Source of the DNA: Nitriliruptoraceae bacterium
GTDB taxonomy: Bacteria > Actinomycetota > Nitriliruptoria > Nitriliruptorales > Nitriliruptoraceae
Assembly (NCBI GenBank): GCA_007122985.1
Contig: SKSM01000014.1
Location: 1-33,571, forward strand
Direction of reading: 5' to 3'
DNA: 33,571 bases
Shown piece by piece: positions 9,654-26,827 of this stretch. The notes under the pieces are model-generated. The model saw only the letters and a list, made by a program, of their open reading frames with translations, ran no database searches and was not told the DNA's origin. The position numbers were made by a program, and so were the translations under genes. How positions within the stretch are numbered: the stretch's first letter is position 1; every line of letters begins with the position of its first letter.

Positions 9654-10817
9654 GTGAACCTCGTTGACCTGCTGCTCGTGTTGCTCGTCGTCATCGCCCT
9701 CGTCGGGGGCCTTCGCGTCGGGCTGATCACGCGTGCGCTGACCTGGTTCGGCGTCGCGATCGGCATCGTCCTGGCCACGCAGACGGTGCCGTTCGCCCTG
9801 TCGTTCATGACCGCCATGGGGGCGATGGTCCGCTTCGTACTGGCCGTGGCCGTTCTCGCGCTGACCGTGTCGCTGTGCGCGACCTTGCTGGGCTCGCTCG
9901 GTCGGCAGCTGCGCCACGGGCTCGGCGACTCGGTGTTCGCCCGGATCGACCGCGTGGCCGGCGGGGTGGCCGGGGTCGTGTTCGTCGTCGGCCTGACCTG
10001 GTTCCTGCTGCCGGCCGCTGCCGAAGTCCCCGGTGGCCTCGCACGTGAGGTCCGCAACTCGACCATCGTCGCCGGCCTTCGCGACGTCACACCACCGCCA
10101 CCGGAGGCCGCGCGCAACCTGCGGACCCTGGTCGCCTCCACCCGCTTTCCCGAGGTGTTCGGCGACCTCGCACCGACCCCTGGGGCCGGGGACCCTCCGA
10201 CCGACGTACCCGTCGACGACGAGGTGGTCGCGCGCGCCAGGGATGCCACGGTGCGCGTGTCGGCACGGGGCTGCGCACGCAACTACGAGGGCTCGGGCGT
10301 GACCATCGACACCGACACGGTGGTCACCAACGCCCACGTCGTGGCCGGCGCGGACGAGGTCGTGCTCTCCCGGCCGGACGGACAGCAGTTCGATGCCGAC
10401 GTCATCGTCTACGACCCCGAGCGCGACCTGGCCGTGCTCGACGCCGACGGGCTCGGGCAGGAGCCCCTACCGCTCGGGCACATCGACACCGGTGCGCGCG
10501 GGATCACGATCGGCTACCCCGGCGGCAGCGAACGACCACGTGTCGCACCGGTGACCATCACCGAACGCCGAACCGCGGTCGGCCGCGACATCTACGGCAT
10601 CGACGAGACCGAGCGGCAGGTGCTGTTCCTGGCCGCGAGCCTCGAGCAGGGGGATTCGGGCTCACCGGTGATCGACGCCGAGGGACGGGTCGTCGCGATC
10701 GTGTTCGCGGTCAGCCCCGACCGCTCGACGACCGCCTTCGCGCTGGACCGTGAGGAGCTCGACGCCGTGCTCGGCGCACCGCGGGTGACCGGCGCGACCG
10801 GCAGCTGCATCAACTGA
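9654..10817 (+). CDS. marP: MarP-like membrane serine protease (CvpA domain plus trypsin-like protease)
   Basis: A 387-residue protein. Residues of about 1-135 contain four hydrophobic helices of the CvpA/colicin V production type. The C-terminal 200 residues form a chymotrypsin-fold protease. The catalytic triad is intact: H228 in TNAHVV, D258 in RDLAVL and S335 in GDSGSP. Two cysteines, in ARGCARNYEG and in the C-terminal GSCIN, match the pair that forms a disulfide in mycobacterial MarP. Length and triad spacing also match (about 397 residues there). MarP acts on the outer face of the membrane, resists acid stress and cleaves a wall hydrolase in Mycobacterium. Here the M23 and Rpf proteins in the window are possible but untested substrates. 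TTG 9630 is an alternative start, with no better support. Confidence 0.9.
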   Translation: MNLVDLLLVLLVVIALVGGLRVGLITRALTWFGVAIGIVLATQTVPFALSFMTAMGAMVRFVLAVAVLALTVSLCATLLGSLGRQLRHGLGDSVFARIDRVAGGVAGVVFVVGLTWFLLPAAAEVPGGLAREVRNSTIVAGLRDVTPPPPEAARNLRTLVASTRFPEVFGDLAPTPGAGDPPTDVPVDDEVVARARDATVRVSARGCARNYEGSGVTIDTDTVVTNAHVVAGADEVVLSRPDGQQFDADVIVYDPERDLAVLDADGLGQEPLPLGHIDTGARGITIGYPGGSERPRVAPVTITERRTAVGRDIYGIDETERQVLFLAASLEQGDSGSPVIDAEGRVVAIVFAVSPDRSTTAFALDREELDAVLGAPRVTGATGSCIN

Positions 10818-22228: not shown

Positions 22229-23473
22229 TCACGCCGGGTCCAGCCGGTAGACCGACCCGCCGAGGTCGAGCACGTAGAGCTCGCCGTCAGCGTCCTCGAC
22301 GAACGAGACAACCTGCCCGCCGTCCACGCCCAGGTCGGCCTGTTCGACCACCTCGCCGTCGTCGACGACCAGGCCGCGGAGCAGCCCGTTGCAGTAGTCG
22401 GCGTAGACGTAGGCGCCGTAGAGCTCATCGATTGCCTCGCCGGTGTAGACGAAGCCGCCGGTGATCGCACAGCCCTCGGGCCCACCGGTCTCGTACTCGT
22501 AGATCGGCGGGACGTGGTCGTCGGGCTCCGGGCCGGCGAACTCGCGGGTTCCCTCCATGAGGTTCCACCCGAAGTTGGCGCCCGCGGCCTCCTCGAGGGG
22601 CAGCAGGTTGACCTCCTCGCGCGCGTCCTGGCCGACGTCGGCGATCCACAGATCGCCGGTCTCGCGATCGAACGAGAACCGCCACGGGTTGCGCAGCCCG
22701 TAGGCGTAGATCTCGTCGGCCGCGCCCTCGTCCGCGACGAAGGGGTTGTCCGGCGGCACCGCGTACGGCTCGTCGCCCTGTGGGTCGATCCGCAGCAGGG
22801 CACCGAGCGGGGTCGAGCGGTCCTGCCCCGCCGCGAGCGGGTCCCCGCCGCCGCCGCCGTCGCCGAGGCCGAGGTAGAGCAAGCCGTCCGGCCCGACCGT
22901 GACGTCGCCGCCGTTGTGGTTCGCGTACGGCTGCTCGAGGGTGAACACCGTGCGTTCGTCGTCTGCCACCACCTCGCCGTCCTCGACCGCGACCGCCGAC
23001 AGCACGGTGTCGCCCGCGGTGTCGGTCAACGACAGGTAGAGCTCGCTGCCGTCGGCCGCGAACGCGAGTCCGAGCAGCCCGCGTTCCCCGTCCACGGTCG
23101 TCCGGCCCGAGACATCGACGACCGGTTCACCCAGCCCGTCGTCGGTCAGGGGGTGGACCGTGCCGCCGCGCTCAGCAAGGTAGATGGTGCCGTCCGGCCC
23201 GACCGCCCCGGCGGTCGGCGAGTCCATCGTGGCCACCTCGGTGAGCGTGACCGCCACGTCGAGCCGGGGGTCGCGCTCGCGGGTGCGCTCGGGAGGGTCC
23301 GGCTCCACGTCGGGCTCGGCCGGCTCCGGCTCCGGGGCGTCCGGTTCCGCACGCTCGTCGTCATCGGGCGCCTCGGGCGCCGGTGGATCGTCTGGCGGTG
23401 CGTCGGCGTCGCAGGCGGCCAGCACGAGCGCGGCAACGGCGAGCACAGCGGTGATCGGGCGCATCCATGACAT
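22229..23473 (-). CDS. Lipoprotein of the PQQ glucose/sorbosone dehydrogenase family
   Basis: A 414-residue protein starting at ATG 23473, fixed by a leaderless promoter; ATG 23464 is the alternative. A lipobox LAAC ends the signal peptide, so the protein is lipid-anchored outside the cell. A Pro/Asp/Glu linker of about 50 residues follows. The remainder is a six-bladed beta-propeller: ERGLLGLAFA, NHNGGDVTVGPDGLLYLGLGD, GALLRIDP, NPWRFSFDRETGDLWIADVGQ, GANFGWNLMEG and YVYADYCNGLLRGL. Relatives oxidise sugars with PQQ, but many actinobacterial members are uncharacterised and may not bind PQQ. No PQQ synthesis gene is present. It is divergent from the double-GNAT gene, with overlapping promoter regions. 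Confidence 0.87.
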   Translation of the reverse strand: MSWMRPITAVLAVAALVLAACDADAPPDDPPAPEAPDDDERAEPDAPEPEPAEPDVEPDPPERTRERDPRLDVAVTLTEVATMDSPTAGAVGPDGTIYLAERGGTVHPLTDDGLGEPVVDVSGRTTVDGERGLLGLAFAADGSELYLSLTDTAGDTVLSAVAVEDGEVVADDERTVFTLEQPYANHNGGDVTVGPDGLLYLGLGDGGGGGDPLAAGQDRSTPLGALLRIDPQGDEPYAVPPDNPFVADEGAADEIYAYGLRNPWRFSFDRETGDLWIADVGQDAREEVNLLPLEEAAGANFGWNLMEGTREFAGPEPDDHVPPIYEYETGGPEGCAITGGFVYTGEAIDELYGAYVYADYCNGLLRGLVVDDGEVVEQADLGVDGGQVVSFVEDADGELYVLDLGGSVYRLDPA

Positions 23474-23480
23474 GCCGGCC

Positions 23481-23486
23481 ACGGTA
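23481..23486 (-). promoter_or_regulatory. Leaderless promoter -10 (TACCGT) for the sorbosone-dehydrogenase-like gene
   Basis: On the minus strand TACCGT is followed by exactly 7 bases and ATG 23473. No ribosome site precedes the ATG. Confidence 0.6.
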
Positions 23487-23490
23487 CCGA

Positions 23491-23501
23491 GCACCCGGTG
23501 C
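23491..23501. promoter_or_regulatory. Inverted repeat GCACC-C-GGTGC between divergent promoters
   Basis: The repeat occupies the 20-base space between the minus-strand -10 (23481-23486) and the plus-strand -10 (23507-23512). A protein bound here could block or couple both promoters. Confidence 0.35.
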
Positions 23502-23506
23502 GCCAC

Positions 23507-23512
23507 TACCGT
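23507..23512 (+). promoter_or_regulatory. -10 element (TACCGT) for the double-GNAT gene
   Basis: TACCGT predicts a start near 23519 and a short leader of about 23 bases with GGGGAGG at 23531-23537 before GTG 23542. Confidence 0.55.
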
Positions 23513-23541
23513 CGCCGCCACACCCGCAGCGGGGAGGCCCT

Positions 23542-24480
23542 GTGGAGGTCACCGTGGCCACGGCCGCCACCCTCGAGGCACTGGCCGCACTGGTCGCCGC
23601 ACAACAGGCCGACCCACGCTCGCACATCGGCTACCTCGGCGACGACGCGACCTCGATCGCCGCCGACCTCGCCGGCCTCGAACCCGACGGCCTCGACGGT
23701 GTCCTCGTCGCACAGGCCGCCGACCGGGTAGTCGGGGTGCTGGGCGCCGAGTACGACACCGACCCGCCGCGGGTCTGGTGGCACGGACCGTTCGTCGCCG
23801 GTGTCGACGATCCCGGCGAGGCGGCCGACGCGCTCTACGGCGCCGCACGGCAGCGGCTGCCCGGTGTCGTCCGCGAGGAGGAACTGGCACCCGACGACCG
23901 CAACCAGCTGGTCGCCGAGCTCGCCCGACGGCACGGATTCGTCGCCGAGGAGGCCTCCGCGGTACTGACCCGGCCGCTGTGGCCCACGACGGATCCGCCC
24001 GCCGATCACCCGGAGGTCGCGATCGCGCCGCTGGCAGCGGGCCACCGTCGCGAGGTCGCGACGCTCCATGACACGACCTTCCCCGGCACGCACACGGTCA
24101 GCGATCGGCTGGACCTCGGCGAGGAGCGACGGGTGCTGGTCGCGACGAGCCACGACGCCGGCGTGGTCTGCGGCTACGTGGCCGTCGAGGTGCAGGCGAA
24201 CCAGGCCGGCTACATCGACTACCTCGCCGTAGCCGAGCAGCACCGTGGCCGCGGGATCGGCGGCGCGCTGGTGTCGGTCGCCTGCGCGTCGCTCGCGGCG
24301 GCGGGCTGCGGGTCCGCGACCCTGACCGTGCGGGAGTCGAACGGTGCGGCCCGAGCGCTCTACTCGCGGCTGGGCTTTCGCGAGGTCCGGCTGCTGCGTC
24401 CCTGGCGCCGCGGCTTCCGCCTCAACGACCCGGTCGCCGAGGCCGACCCGGTGCCACCGGCGGAGCCGGCCGGGCCGTGA
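23542..24480 (+). CDS. Tandem GNAT acetyltransferase
   Basis: A 312-residue protein starting at GTG 23542, after GGGGAGG with a spacer of 4. Residues of about 1-150 look like a degenerate GNAT half without a clear acetyl-CoA loop. Residues of about 155-300 form an active-looking GNAT domain: YIDYLAVAEQHRGRGIGGALV contains the R/Q-x-x-G-x-G/A loop, followed by TLTVRESNGAARALYSRLGF. A double-GNAT layout with one working half is common in actinobacterial enzymes such as mycothiol synthase relatives. This one lacks features that would assign it to MshD. The substrate is unknown. Its last 59 bases overlap the convergent DUF429 gene. Confidence 0.85.
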   Translation: MEVTVATAATLEALAALVAAQQADPRSHIGYLGDDATSIAADLAGLEPDGLDGVLVAQAADRVVGVLGAEYDTDPPRVWWHGPFVAGVDDPGEAADALYGAARQRLPGVVREEELAPDDRNQLVAELARRHGFVAEEASAVLTRPLWPTTDPPADHPEVAIAPLAAGHRREVATLHDTTFPGTHTVSDRLDLGEERRVLVATSHDAGVVCGYVAVEVQANQAGYIDYLAVAEQHRGRGIGGALVSVACASLAAAGCGSATLTVRESNGAARALYSRLGFREVRLLRPWRRGFRLNDPVAEADPVPPAEPAGP

Positions 24481-25156
24481 TGACGATGCGACGGCCCCGG
24501 TCGATCTGATCGGTCGCGTCCGGGACCTGCAGCAGCGGCAGCCCCGCCGCGGCCGCGTCGGCGACCCAGGCGCACACGGCCGCGTCGACCACGTCGTCAG
24601 GGGCGACGTGCTCGTCGCCGGGGAACCGGTCGGGCAGGTGCACGCCGTGCCGCGCCAGGATGGACCGGCGGGTCGTGATGCCGCCCCACGACCGTTTGGG
24701 CGGCGGGACATCGCCGACGACCGCGGCGAAGGCGACCTCCGGGTGGACCTCCAGCAGCTCGTGGCCGGCGGCGAGCAGGTCGTCGACCGCGGCGATCTTT
24801 GGCACCAGCCGCCAGGCCTGCAGGCTGAGGCCGACGCCCGTCACGGCCGTCGCCAGCTCGGTCGCGGCCGCGTGGTCGCAGATGCTGCCGTCGCGGTAGC
24901 CGTCCACGACACAGCGCGGCGGCGCGGAGAACACGCTGCCCGTACGTCCGGGCAGCAGCCTTCGCGCCGCAACGTCCGCGTCGCGGCGCCCGTCGACCAG
25001 CCCGATCGGCATGTCGATCCCGGCGGCGTCCACCGGCGGCGCCAGCGCCTCGGTCAGCGCGTCCACCACCTCGACGTCGGCGACCGCCCCGTCGACCAGC
25101 AGCACGACGACCCAGCCCACCGCACAGCCGTCTGCACCGATCACCCGTCGGGTCAC
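24422..25156 (-). CDS. DUF429 family protein (predicted RNase H-like nuclease)
   Basis: A 244-residue protein starting at GTG 25156, with GAGG just upstream; GTG 25162 overlaps that site. It opens with VIGADGCAVGWVVVLL, typical of the first strand of the RNase H-like fold in DUF429. AAGIDMPIGL carries a second conserved acidic residue, ARRLLPGRTGSVFSAPPR is the family loop, and EVHPEVAFAAVVGD and DDVVDAAVCAWVAD lie near the end. Nuclease activity is a structural prediction only. The start region is divergent from the gene at 25273 through a symmetric -10 element. The 3' end overlaps the double-GNAT gene by 59 bases. Confidence 0.82.
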   Translation of the reverse strand: MTRRVIGADGCAVGWVVVLLVDGAVADVEVVDALTEALAPPVDAAGIDMPIGLVDGRRDADVAARRLLPGRTGSVFSAPPRCVVDGYRDGSICDHAAATELATAVTGVGLSLQAWRLVPKIAAVDDLLAAGHELLEVHPEVAFAAVVGDVPPPKRSWGGITTRRSILARHGVHLPDRFPGDEHVAPDDVVDAAVCAWVADAAAAGLPLLQVPDATDQIDRGRRIVITARPAPPVAPGRPRRPGR

Positions 25157-25205
25157 GTTCACCTCACGTCGCCGCGACCGGCACCGCACACGGCCATCCA
25201 CGGGT

Positions 25206-25212
25206 TACCGTA
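25206..25212. promoter_or_regulatory. Symmetric bidirectional -10 element TACCGTA
   Basis: On the plus strand TACCGT (25206-25211) could start the 81-residue gene. On the minus strand TACGGT (25212-25207) could start the DUF429 gene. The two hexamers overlap by five bases, so one polymerase site could fire in either direction. The predicted leaders are about 55 and 44 bases. Confidence 0.5.
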
Positions 25213-25272
25213 GGACCTGCGCGGACCAGCCGAGCGCACCGACCAGCAGCGAACGAGTCGAGGGAGAGTCAG

Positions 25273-25518
25273 GTGGCACGTCGCAACCGTCCGGCGAGCA
25301 CGCCGTCGCAGACCTCCGGTCCCGCCAAGGGCCGCCCGGCACCGAAGGGGCGCCCGACGCCCGGCAAGCGCGAGCGCGCCGAGCAAGCCCGCCGGCGGGC
25401 GCGTCGGCGACGCATCCAGGTCTGGGCATGGTGGTCACTGCTCGTGGTGGTGGTCATCGGCACGCTGGTGTTCTTCGCCGTGACCGACCTCGGCCAGACC
25501 ACCCCGACCGGCTTCTGA
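25273..25518 (+). CDS. Small basic single-pass membrane protein, 81 residues
   Basis: The start is GTG 25273, with a GGGAGAG ribosome site. Residues 1-48 are very rich in Arg, Pro, Lys and Ala (RPAPKGRPTPGKRERAEQ) and should be disordered and cytoplasmic. Residues of about 50-69 form one transmembrane helix (WAWWSLLVVVVIGTLVFFAV), with a short polar tail outside. The shape suggests a membrane anchor or nucleic-acid- or polymer-binding microprotein, but I recognise no family. It is convergent with the acyl-CoA dehydrogenase gene. Confidence 0.75.
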   Translation: MARRNRPASTPSQTSGPAKGRPAPKGRPTPGKRERAEQARRRARRRRIQVWAWWSLLVVVVIGTLVFFAVTDLGQTTPTGF

Positions 25519-25531
25519 GCCCACCGGGCCC

Positions 25532-25540
25532 GCGCCTCGC

Positions 25541-25546
<6 letters not shown>
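25532..25546. terminator. Small hairpin between convergent genes
   Basis: CGCCT-CGCTC-AGGCG gives a 5-base-pair stem straddling the acyl-CoA dehydrogenase stop (25543-25541). It is a weak candidate for ending the plus-strand transcript. Confidence 0.3.
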
Positions 25547-26758
<1,212 letters not shown>

Positions 26759-26827
26759 CCGGATGCTCCTCGTCGCGGTGTGCAGCACGGTATGCGGCGG
26801 TGCCGCCCGGCAACGAACCGGCGCGCC

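Follow-up and report, generated by a model that had tools for sequence, protein, structure and literature searches.

The window analysed here (the whole stretch of 33,571 nucleotides from an uncultured Nitriliruptoraceae bacterium, genome G000 of the comparison) carries the seven bases TACCGTA at positions 25206-25212, which read as TACCGT on the plus strand (25206-25211) and as TACGGT on the minus strand (25212-25207), with five bases common to both hexamers. An initial annotation had proposed this site as a symmetric -10 element facing two genes, and both the site and its setting were confirmed: gene calls based on codon usage place it in the gap at 25157-25272, between a minus-strand DUF429 gene and a plus-strand gene for an 81-residue protein (Table 1). 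The DUF429 start was set at GTG 25156 by these calls together with homologues, and the longest-ORF start at 25201 was not used. The 81-residue protein matched no Pfam family at the default cut-off. Its gene also occurs in the three other genomes of the genus (G023, G024, and G025), and GAGGGAGA of its ribosome binding site is conserved in G024 and G025.

Table 1. Features of the divergent locus, in window coordinates.
Feature	Position	Strand	Details and basis
DUF429 protein	24422..25156	-	PF04250, E 4e-39 (scan used longer ORF to 25201)
Divergent intergenic gap	25157..25272		116 bp; codon-usage gene calls
GAGG, likely ribosome binding site of DUF429	25162..25165	-	5 bases before GTG 25156; sequence
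Predicted start site, G on minus strand	25201	-	6 bases after -10; 18 bp from 25219; inferred from sequence
-10 hexamer TACCGT, candidate promoter of 81-residue gene	25206..25211	+	67 bp 5' of start codon; sequence
-10 hexamer TACGGT, candidate promoter of DUF429	25207..25212	-	56 bp 5' of start codon; sequence
Predicted start site, G	25219	+	8 bases after -10; inferred from sequence
GAGGGAGAG, likely ribosome binding site of 81-residue gene	25260..25268	+	sequence
81-residue protein	25273..25518	+	start GTG 25273; one likely membrane stretch, by eye
Acyl-CoA dehydrogenase (ACAD)	25541..26758	-	separated from DUF429 by 81-residue gene

Judged indirectly from its positional peak and comparative pattern, TANNNT behaves as the -10 element of Nitriliruptoraceae. 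In samples of 342, 197, and 353 starts from G000, G025, and G016, respectively, it shows a peak at -60 to -20 relative to start codons and few occurrences within genes, while the reversed-letter control T...AT gives no such peak in the same three samples. In the zone 20-60 bp ahead of starts, the G000 sample has 11 occurrences each of TACCGT and TACGGT, and the G016 sample has 8 of TACCGT and 11 of TACGGT. Genes were called with a simple purpose-made caller, and the G000 profile sample includes contigs picked for holding TACCGTA. For the offset, per-hexamer, per-element, and divergent/tandem gap counts given below, contigs were taken by number only; the focal gap of G025 was retained in the offset count and excluded from the other three. 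Within the portion of G025 contig 128 that was sampled, 24 window genes had an orthologue, and 16 of these window genes have TANNNT within 130 bp upstream. Eleven of these 16 have one in G025 too, mostly at a similar distance, and five have none there. The middle bases of orthologous hexamers often differ between the window and G025 (TATGGT/TAGCGT, TACCGT/TAGCGT, and TATGGT/TAGGCT). Among divergent genes, 122/232 on the left-hand side and 113/232 on the right-hand side have no TANNNT 15-120 bp before their start; since about half of divergent genes lack the hexamer in its usual zone, other promoter types probably exist in the lineage, and the absence of another TANNNT is no proof that TACCGTA is used.

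The focal site is the only TANNNTA of the window, and its gap holds no further TANNNT on either strand. Upstream on the minus strand, the next TANNNT is at 26787, before the ACAD gene, with none between 25207 and 26787; on the plus strand, no other occurs from 23507 to 25206. All nine divergent gaps called in the window have at least one TANNNT, and a shared one is present in the focal gap alone. The window is GC-rich, at 69.7-73.6% per 2-kb step. Shuffling gives an expectation of 0.19 per shuffle for the exact 7-mer, which appeared in 18 of 100 shuffles, and Markov models predict 1.3-1.5 occurrences of any TANNNTA. The presence of TACCGTA is thus by itself not beyond chance, and its location is what matters. 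Across the 3.19 Mb of G000, TACCGTA occurs 17 times, versus 91 for a reversed-letter control. Nine of these 17 sites fall in divergent gaps (the focal one included), five in tandem gaps, and three within called genes; this placement was not counted as evidence, and the caller misplaced the start of the 81-residue gene in the short locus L021.

Bidirectional promoters have been described in enteric bacteria from start-site maps and reporter tests (PMC12825309, PMC10268837). They are defined by divergent mapped starts 7-25 bp apart (PMC10268837), with 18 bp as the most frequent distance and 10 and 23 bp also common (PMC12825309), and their enrichment between divergent genes was reported for the Salmonella and E. 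coli chromosomes (PMC10268837). With its predicted distance of 18 bp, the focal site resembles the symmetric 18-bp class of these reports: TACCGT and TACGGT carry reciprocal -11A and -7T on the two strands, lie between divergent genes, and have a weak or missing -35. It differs from that class by a GC-rich TACCGTA in place of an AT-rich -10, by the lack of a T at -18, and by starts that are predicted from sequence. The key bases serving both hexamers are 25207 and 25211, where the -11A of one strand stands opposite the -7T of the other. The initial annotation had assigned this role to the TA ends, whose outer bases proved not to be common, 25206 belonging to the plus hexamer only and 25212 to the minus hexamer only. 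The starts that it had placed at 25218 (plus) and 25200 (minus) both fall on T and needed adjustment; the nearest purines are one base off, and the spacing of 18 bp is unchanged. The T at -18 and the A at +1, which are usual but not required in the 18-bp class, are both absent here (the plus strand has A at 25200 and T at 25218). No -35 of the TTGACA type was found at 15-19 bp in G000, where the best match is 3/6 on both strands, nor by a consensus scan, and the best TTGACA matches across the four genus genomes reach only 1-3/6. A -35 score of 3 or less is found at 492 of 572 lineage candidate -10s. Scores of at least 4 are found at 80/572, versus 42/572 after shuffling, so that some lineage promoters do possess a -35. 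Among actinobacteria, the -10 of Streptomyces avermitilis derived from mapped starts is TANNNT, with a less conserved -35 (PMC8780764). The signature is thus the same as here, although the main text of that source contains neither the word 'divergent' nor 'bidirectional'. Among the matches listed for actinobacterial and bacterial bidirectional promoters, in a literature coverage outside which most subscription journals lie, no such case appeared.

The divergent 81-residue/DUF429 pair is present in all four genus genomes (G000, G023, G024, and G025), and each of their gaps contains a single minus-strand TANNNT, which shares bases with a TANNNT on the plus strand. The gaps of G000, G024, and G025 hold TACCGTA, and TTACCGTANGACCT is conserved in these three genomes. 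The G023 gap holds AGGATAGGGT, which reads as TATCCT on the minus strand and TAGGGT on the plus strand, with TA common to both, and fits the pattern ANNNTANNNT of the 23-bp class. By arithmetic, the predicted start spacing is 18 bp for TACCGTA and 23 bp for AGGATAGGGT. As in the 23-bp class (PMC12825309), the G023 hexamers are placed back to back and share TA, with predicted starts 23 bp apart; unlike that class, the same gene pair carries the 18-bp class in sister species. The plus hexamer of G023 is 59 bp before the GTG at the end of its gap, and the minus hexamer is 36-56 bp from the DUF429 start across the four genomes. The G024 gap (L002) also has a second plus-strand TACCGT, 12 bp after the shared one. 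Because G024 and G025 are near-identical at the locus, independent comparisons are few. Since symmetry was the reason for choosing G000, and G024 and G025 are closely related to each other, the sole unselected test is G023. The chance of a shared element in G023 is roughly 8-12%, given that about 12% of hexamers are shared and that an antisense hexamer occurs in 18 of 208 tandem gaps. Its different shared element is therefore suggestive, though not conclusive, support for two-way use. A scan of genome records returned four loci and no further species of the genus; two of them were distant (33% and 36%), and the gene ends of L195 equal those of L058 (G017).

Conservation of the site as proof of dual use was considered and rejected. 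Eleven promoter pairs (window versus L094-L096) were hand-picked from the 24 orthologue rows, each with a hexamer upstream on both sides and one alignment. The base directly after the -10 is identical in 11/11 pairs, even where the hexamer middle differs, so that the A kept at the focal site proves nothing by itself. In near-site identity, the focal pair is the highest of the 11 by one base (15/23, with five others at 14), and over 47 bases it is an unremarkable fourth, with 24 identical bases (others 29, 25, and 25).

Whether symmetry exceeds chance was assessed across five genomes with promoter-placed elements. Of the elements in divergent gaps, 29/234 had shared geometry of the 18-bp or 23-bp type, compared with 26/209 of those in tandem gaps (p 0.56). 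Divided by class, TANNNTA accounted for 14/234 and 11/209, and ANNNTANNNT for 15/234 and 15/209, respectively. There was thus no lineage enrichment of the 18-bp class between divergent genes in this test, which concerns hexamers across the lineage and neither mapped starts nor the focal site itself. Symmetry alone is weak evidence, given that divergent gaps are no richer in shared -10 hexamers than tandem ones. The antisense TANNNT frequency cited above refers to tandem gaps of 80-140 bp. Hexamers serving both genes occur in 62 divergent gaps; they form a separate pair in 52 and are present only in shared form in ten, the focal site being of this rarer sort. Two apparent signs of genome-wide selection were rejected. 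Offsets between opposite hexamers in the divergent gaps of three genomes pile up at the 18-bp (9) and 23-bp (13) registers, and a per-hexamer count over five genomes gave 49/254 versus 26/209 (p 0.03). However, a shared TA favours these registers, shared elements in divergent gaps were counted twice, and the effect was gone once each element was counted once. Of the six TANNNTA sites that the unselected G000 sample has in divergent gaps, four are on contig 13 (L045 and L074), in AT-rich surroundings, and this cluster is possibly foreign DNA.

Gene order in other genera provides a different type of evidence. DUF429 was matched in 20 genomes, four of them of the genus, and 13 outside loci were scored that had more than 50% identity and a match reaching the protein start; L069 and L073, which lack the 5' end, were left out, as were L071 and L072 (42% and 38%). 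In 12 of the 13, DUF429 is located behind a co-directional gene and has no TANNNT directly before it; in L067, one TANNNT lies at -167, within the upstream gene. The partner is a TetR regulator in six loci (g8 and g14), ACAD in four (G016 and three g2 genomes), a GSDH-family gene in one (G007), and an unlabelled gene in one (G019), and it frequently overlaps DUF429 by a few bases. In the 13th locus (G001, L066), which was judged by eye from the sequence because an incorrect ORF was called across DUF429, this gene seems divergent from a transporter-like gene, with separate TACGGT and TAGCCT hexamers. In the genus genomes, by contrast, the 81-residue gene stands antisense directly before DUF429, and a possible old partner is found beyond it on the DUF429 strand: ACAD in G000, TetR in G024 and G025, and an alpha/beta hydrolase followed by ACAD in G023. 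Set against the order in other genera, this arrangement suggests that the small gene was inserted into the operon in reverse orientation. On the other side of DUF429 in the window, a plus-strand GNAT acetyltransferase gene (23542-24480) stands between it and a GSDH gene (22229-23506). DUF429 is directly followed by a gene whose ends are GSDH-like in L058, L002, and L003, so that G000 seems to have undergone two insertions into the same old cluster.

The reading favoured here, and in our judgement a probable one, is that TACCGTA acts as a bidirectional promoter supplying DUF429 after the operon was split. The two-way interpretation of the initial annotation gains from the lineage -10 signature, the occurrence of both hexamers at promoter distance elsewhere, their standing as the sole TANNNT of the gap, and the recurrence of a shared element in four genus genomes. 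Its description as a clean example does not hold, as the site lacks both a -35 and a T at -18, both suggested starts fall on T, and shared geometry is not enriched between divergent genes. We infer that the seven bases would accommodate the principal sigma factor in either of two orientations, with DNA opening at the reciprocal -11A/-7T pairs 25207 and 25211 serving both directions. Transcription would then start near 25219 for the 81-residue gene and near 25201 for DUF429. The two orientations would be mutually exclusive at any moment, one binding event excluding the other, so that the genes would share one weak promoter without a -35, and two weak, largely independent transcripts would be expected. 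Historically, DUF429 would originally have been transcribed from its upstream co-directional gene, until, in the ancestor of the genus, a copy of the small gene came to separate the two, pointing the other way. The -10 of the small gene, which was or became two-way, would then have supplied the orphaned DUF429. The fuller proposal that the symmetry of the newcomer's -10 rescued DUF429 from the split, with two-way function kept while the geometry came to differ (18-bp in three genomes, 23-bp in one), is advanced tentatively, as a possible but doubtful course of events.

The chief rival is a one-way promoter, in which TACCGT drives the 81-residue gene alone and is symmetric by chance, while DUF429 depends on readthrough from the old operon promoter, across the antisense strand of the 81-residue gene, or on a promoter of another type than TANNNT. 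We regard it as rather unlikely, though it agrees with several observations. About 12% of lineage -10s have shared geometry whatever the gene order. Outside the genus, the 81-residue protein has 11 matches; of the best five (the six weaker being L010-L015), four have plain one-way hexamers (TAGATT, TACGCT, TACCCT, and TACCAT; 0/4 shared) and the fifth has no TANNNT. No terminator-like site was found within 24300-26200. A structure considered as a possible stop to readthrough from ACAD is a GC hairpin lacking a run of T (z -0.29 on the plus strand and -1.75 on the minus strand). On the other hand, G023 has a different shared element, which chance would give at the rate estimated above, and DUF429 has its own likely ribosome binding site.

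Two further explanations appear much less probable. Minus-strand starts might occur and yield only spurious or short RNA, with DUF429 expressed independently of them. Symmetric -10s in tandem gaps (11/209), where the second direction faces no gene start within the gap, are in line with this, but the promoter-like distance of 36-56 bp between the minus hexamer and the DUF429 start in four genomes argues against it, and we hold it to be improbable. Slightly more remote still is the view that the palindrome is primarily a regulator's operator and its promoter function secondary. TAC-C-GTA is a perfect odd palindrome, a 14-base block with one base free is kept in three genomes, and a TetR-family gene lies just past the 81-residue gene in G024 and G025. 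However, the symmetry ends at the 7-mer, which is shorter than usual operators, no regulator gene adjoins the site in G000, and the palindrome is absent from G023.

The promoter type itself is known, and the new part is comparative, namely the gene order together with the shared -10 across the genus. The site is plausibly an ordinary member of a known promoter kind, with predicted activity and an informative gene-order history. It offers a natural before-and-after comparison: in related genera DUF429 trails a co-directional gene, and in this genus it is on its own downstream of a shared -10. Should the favoured reading be true, symmetry lets a rearranged gene remain transcribed. The negative result also matters, as it indicates that in this GC-rich family, shared -10s are not commoner between divergent genes.

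Further observations concern TANNNT sites elsewhere in these genomes. Within called coding sequence, TANNNTA occurs 4, 1, and 0 times in 346, 208, and 359 kb of G000, G025, and G016, compared with 101, 49, and 67 occurrences of ATNNNAT; codon usage, avoidance of TA, or avoidance of stray promoters could explain this scarcity. Finally, TANNNT is found only 12-13 bp before the start codons at 9654, 10860, and 32349 of the window and at 12472 of L094, which fits leaderless transcripts. This short spacing is present in both the window and G025 for 9654 and 32349, in the window only for 10860, and in G025 only for 12472 of L094.
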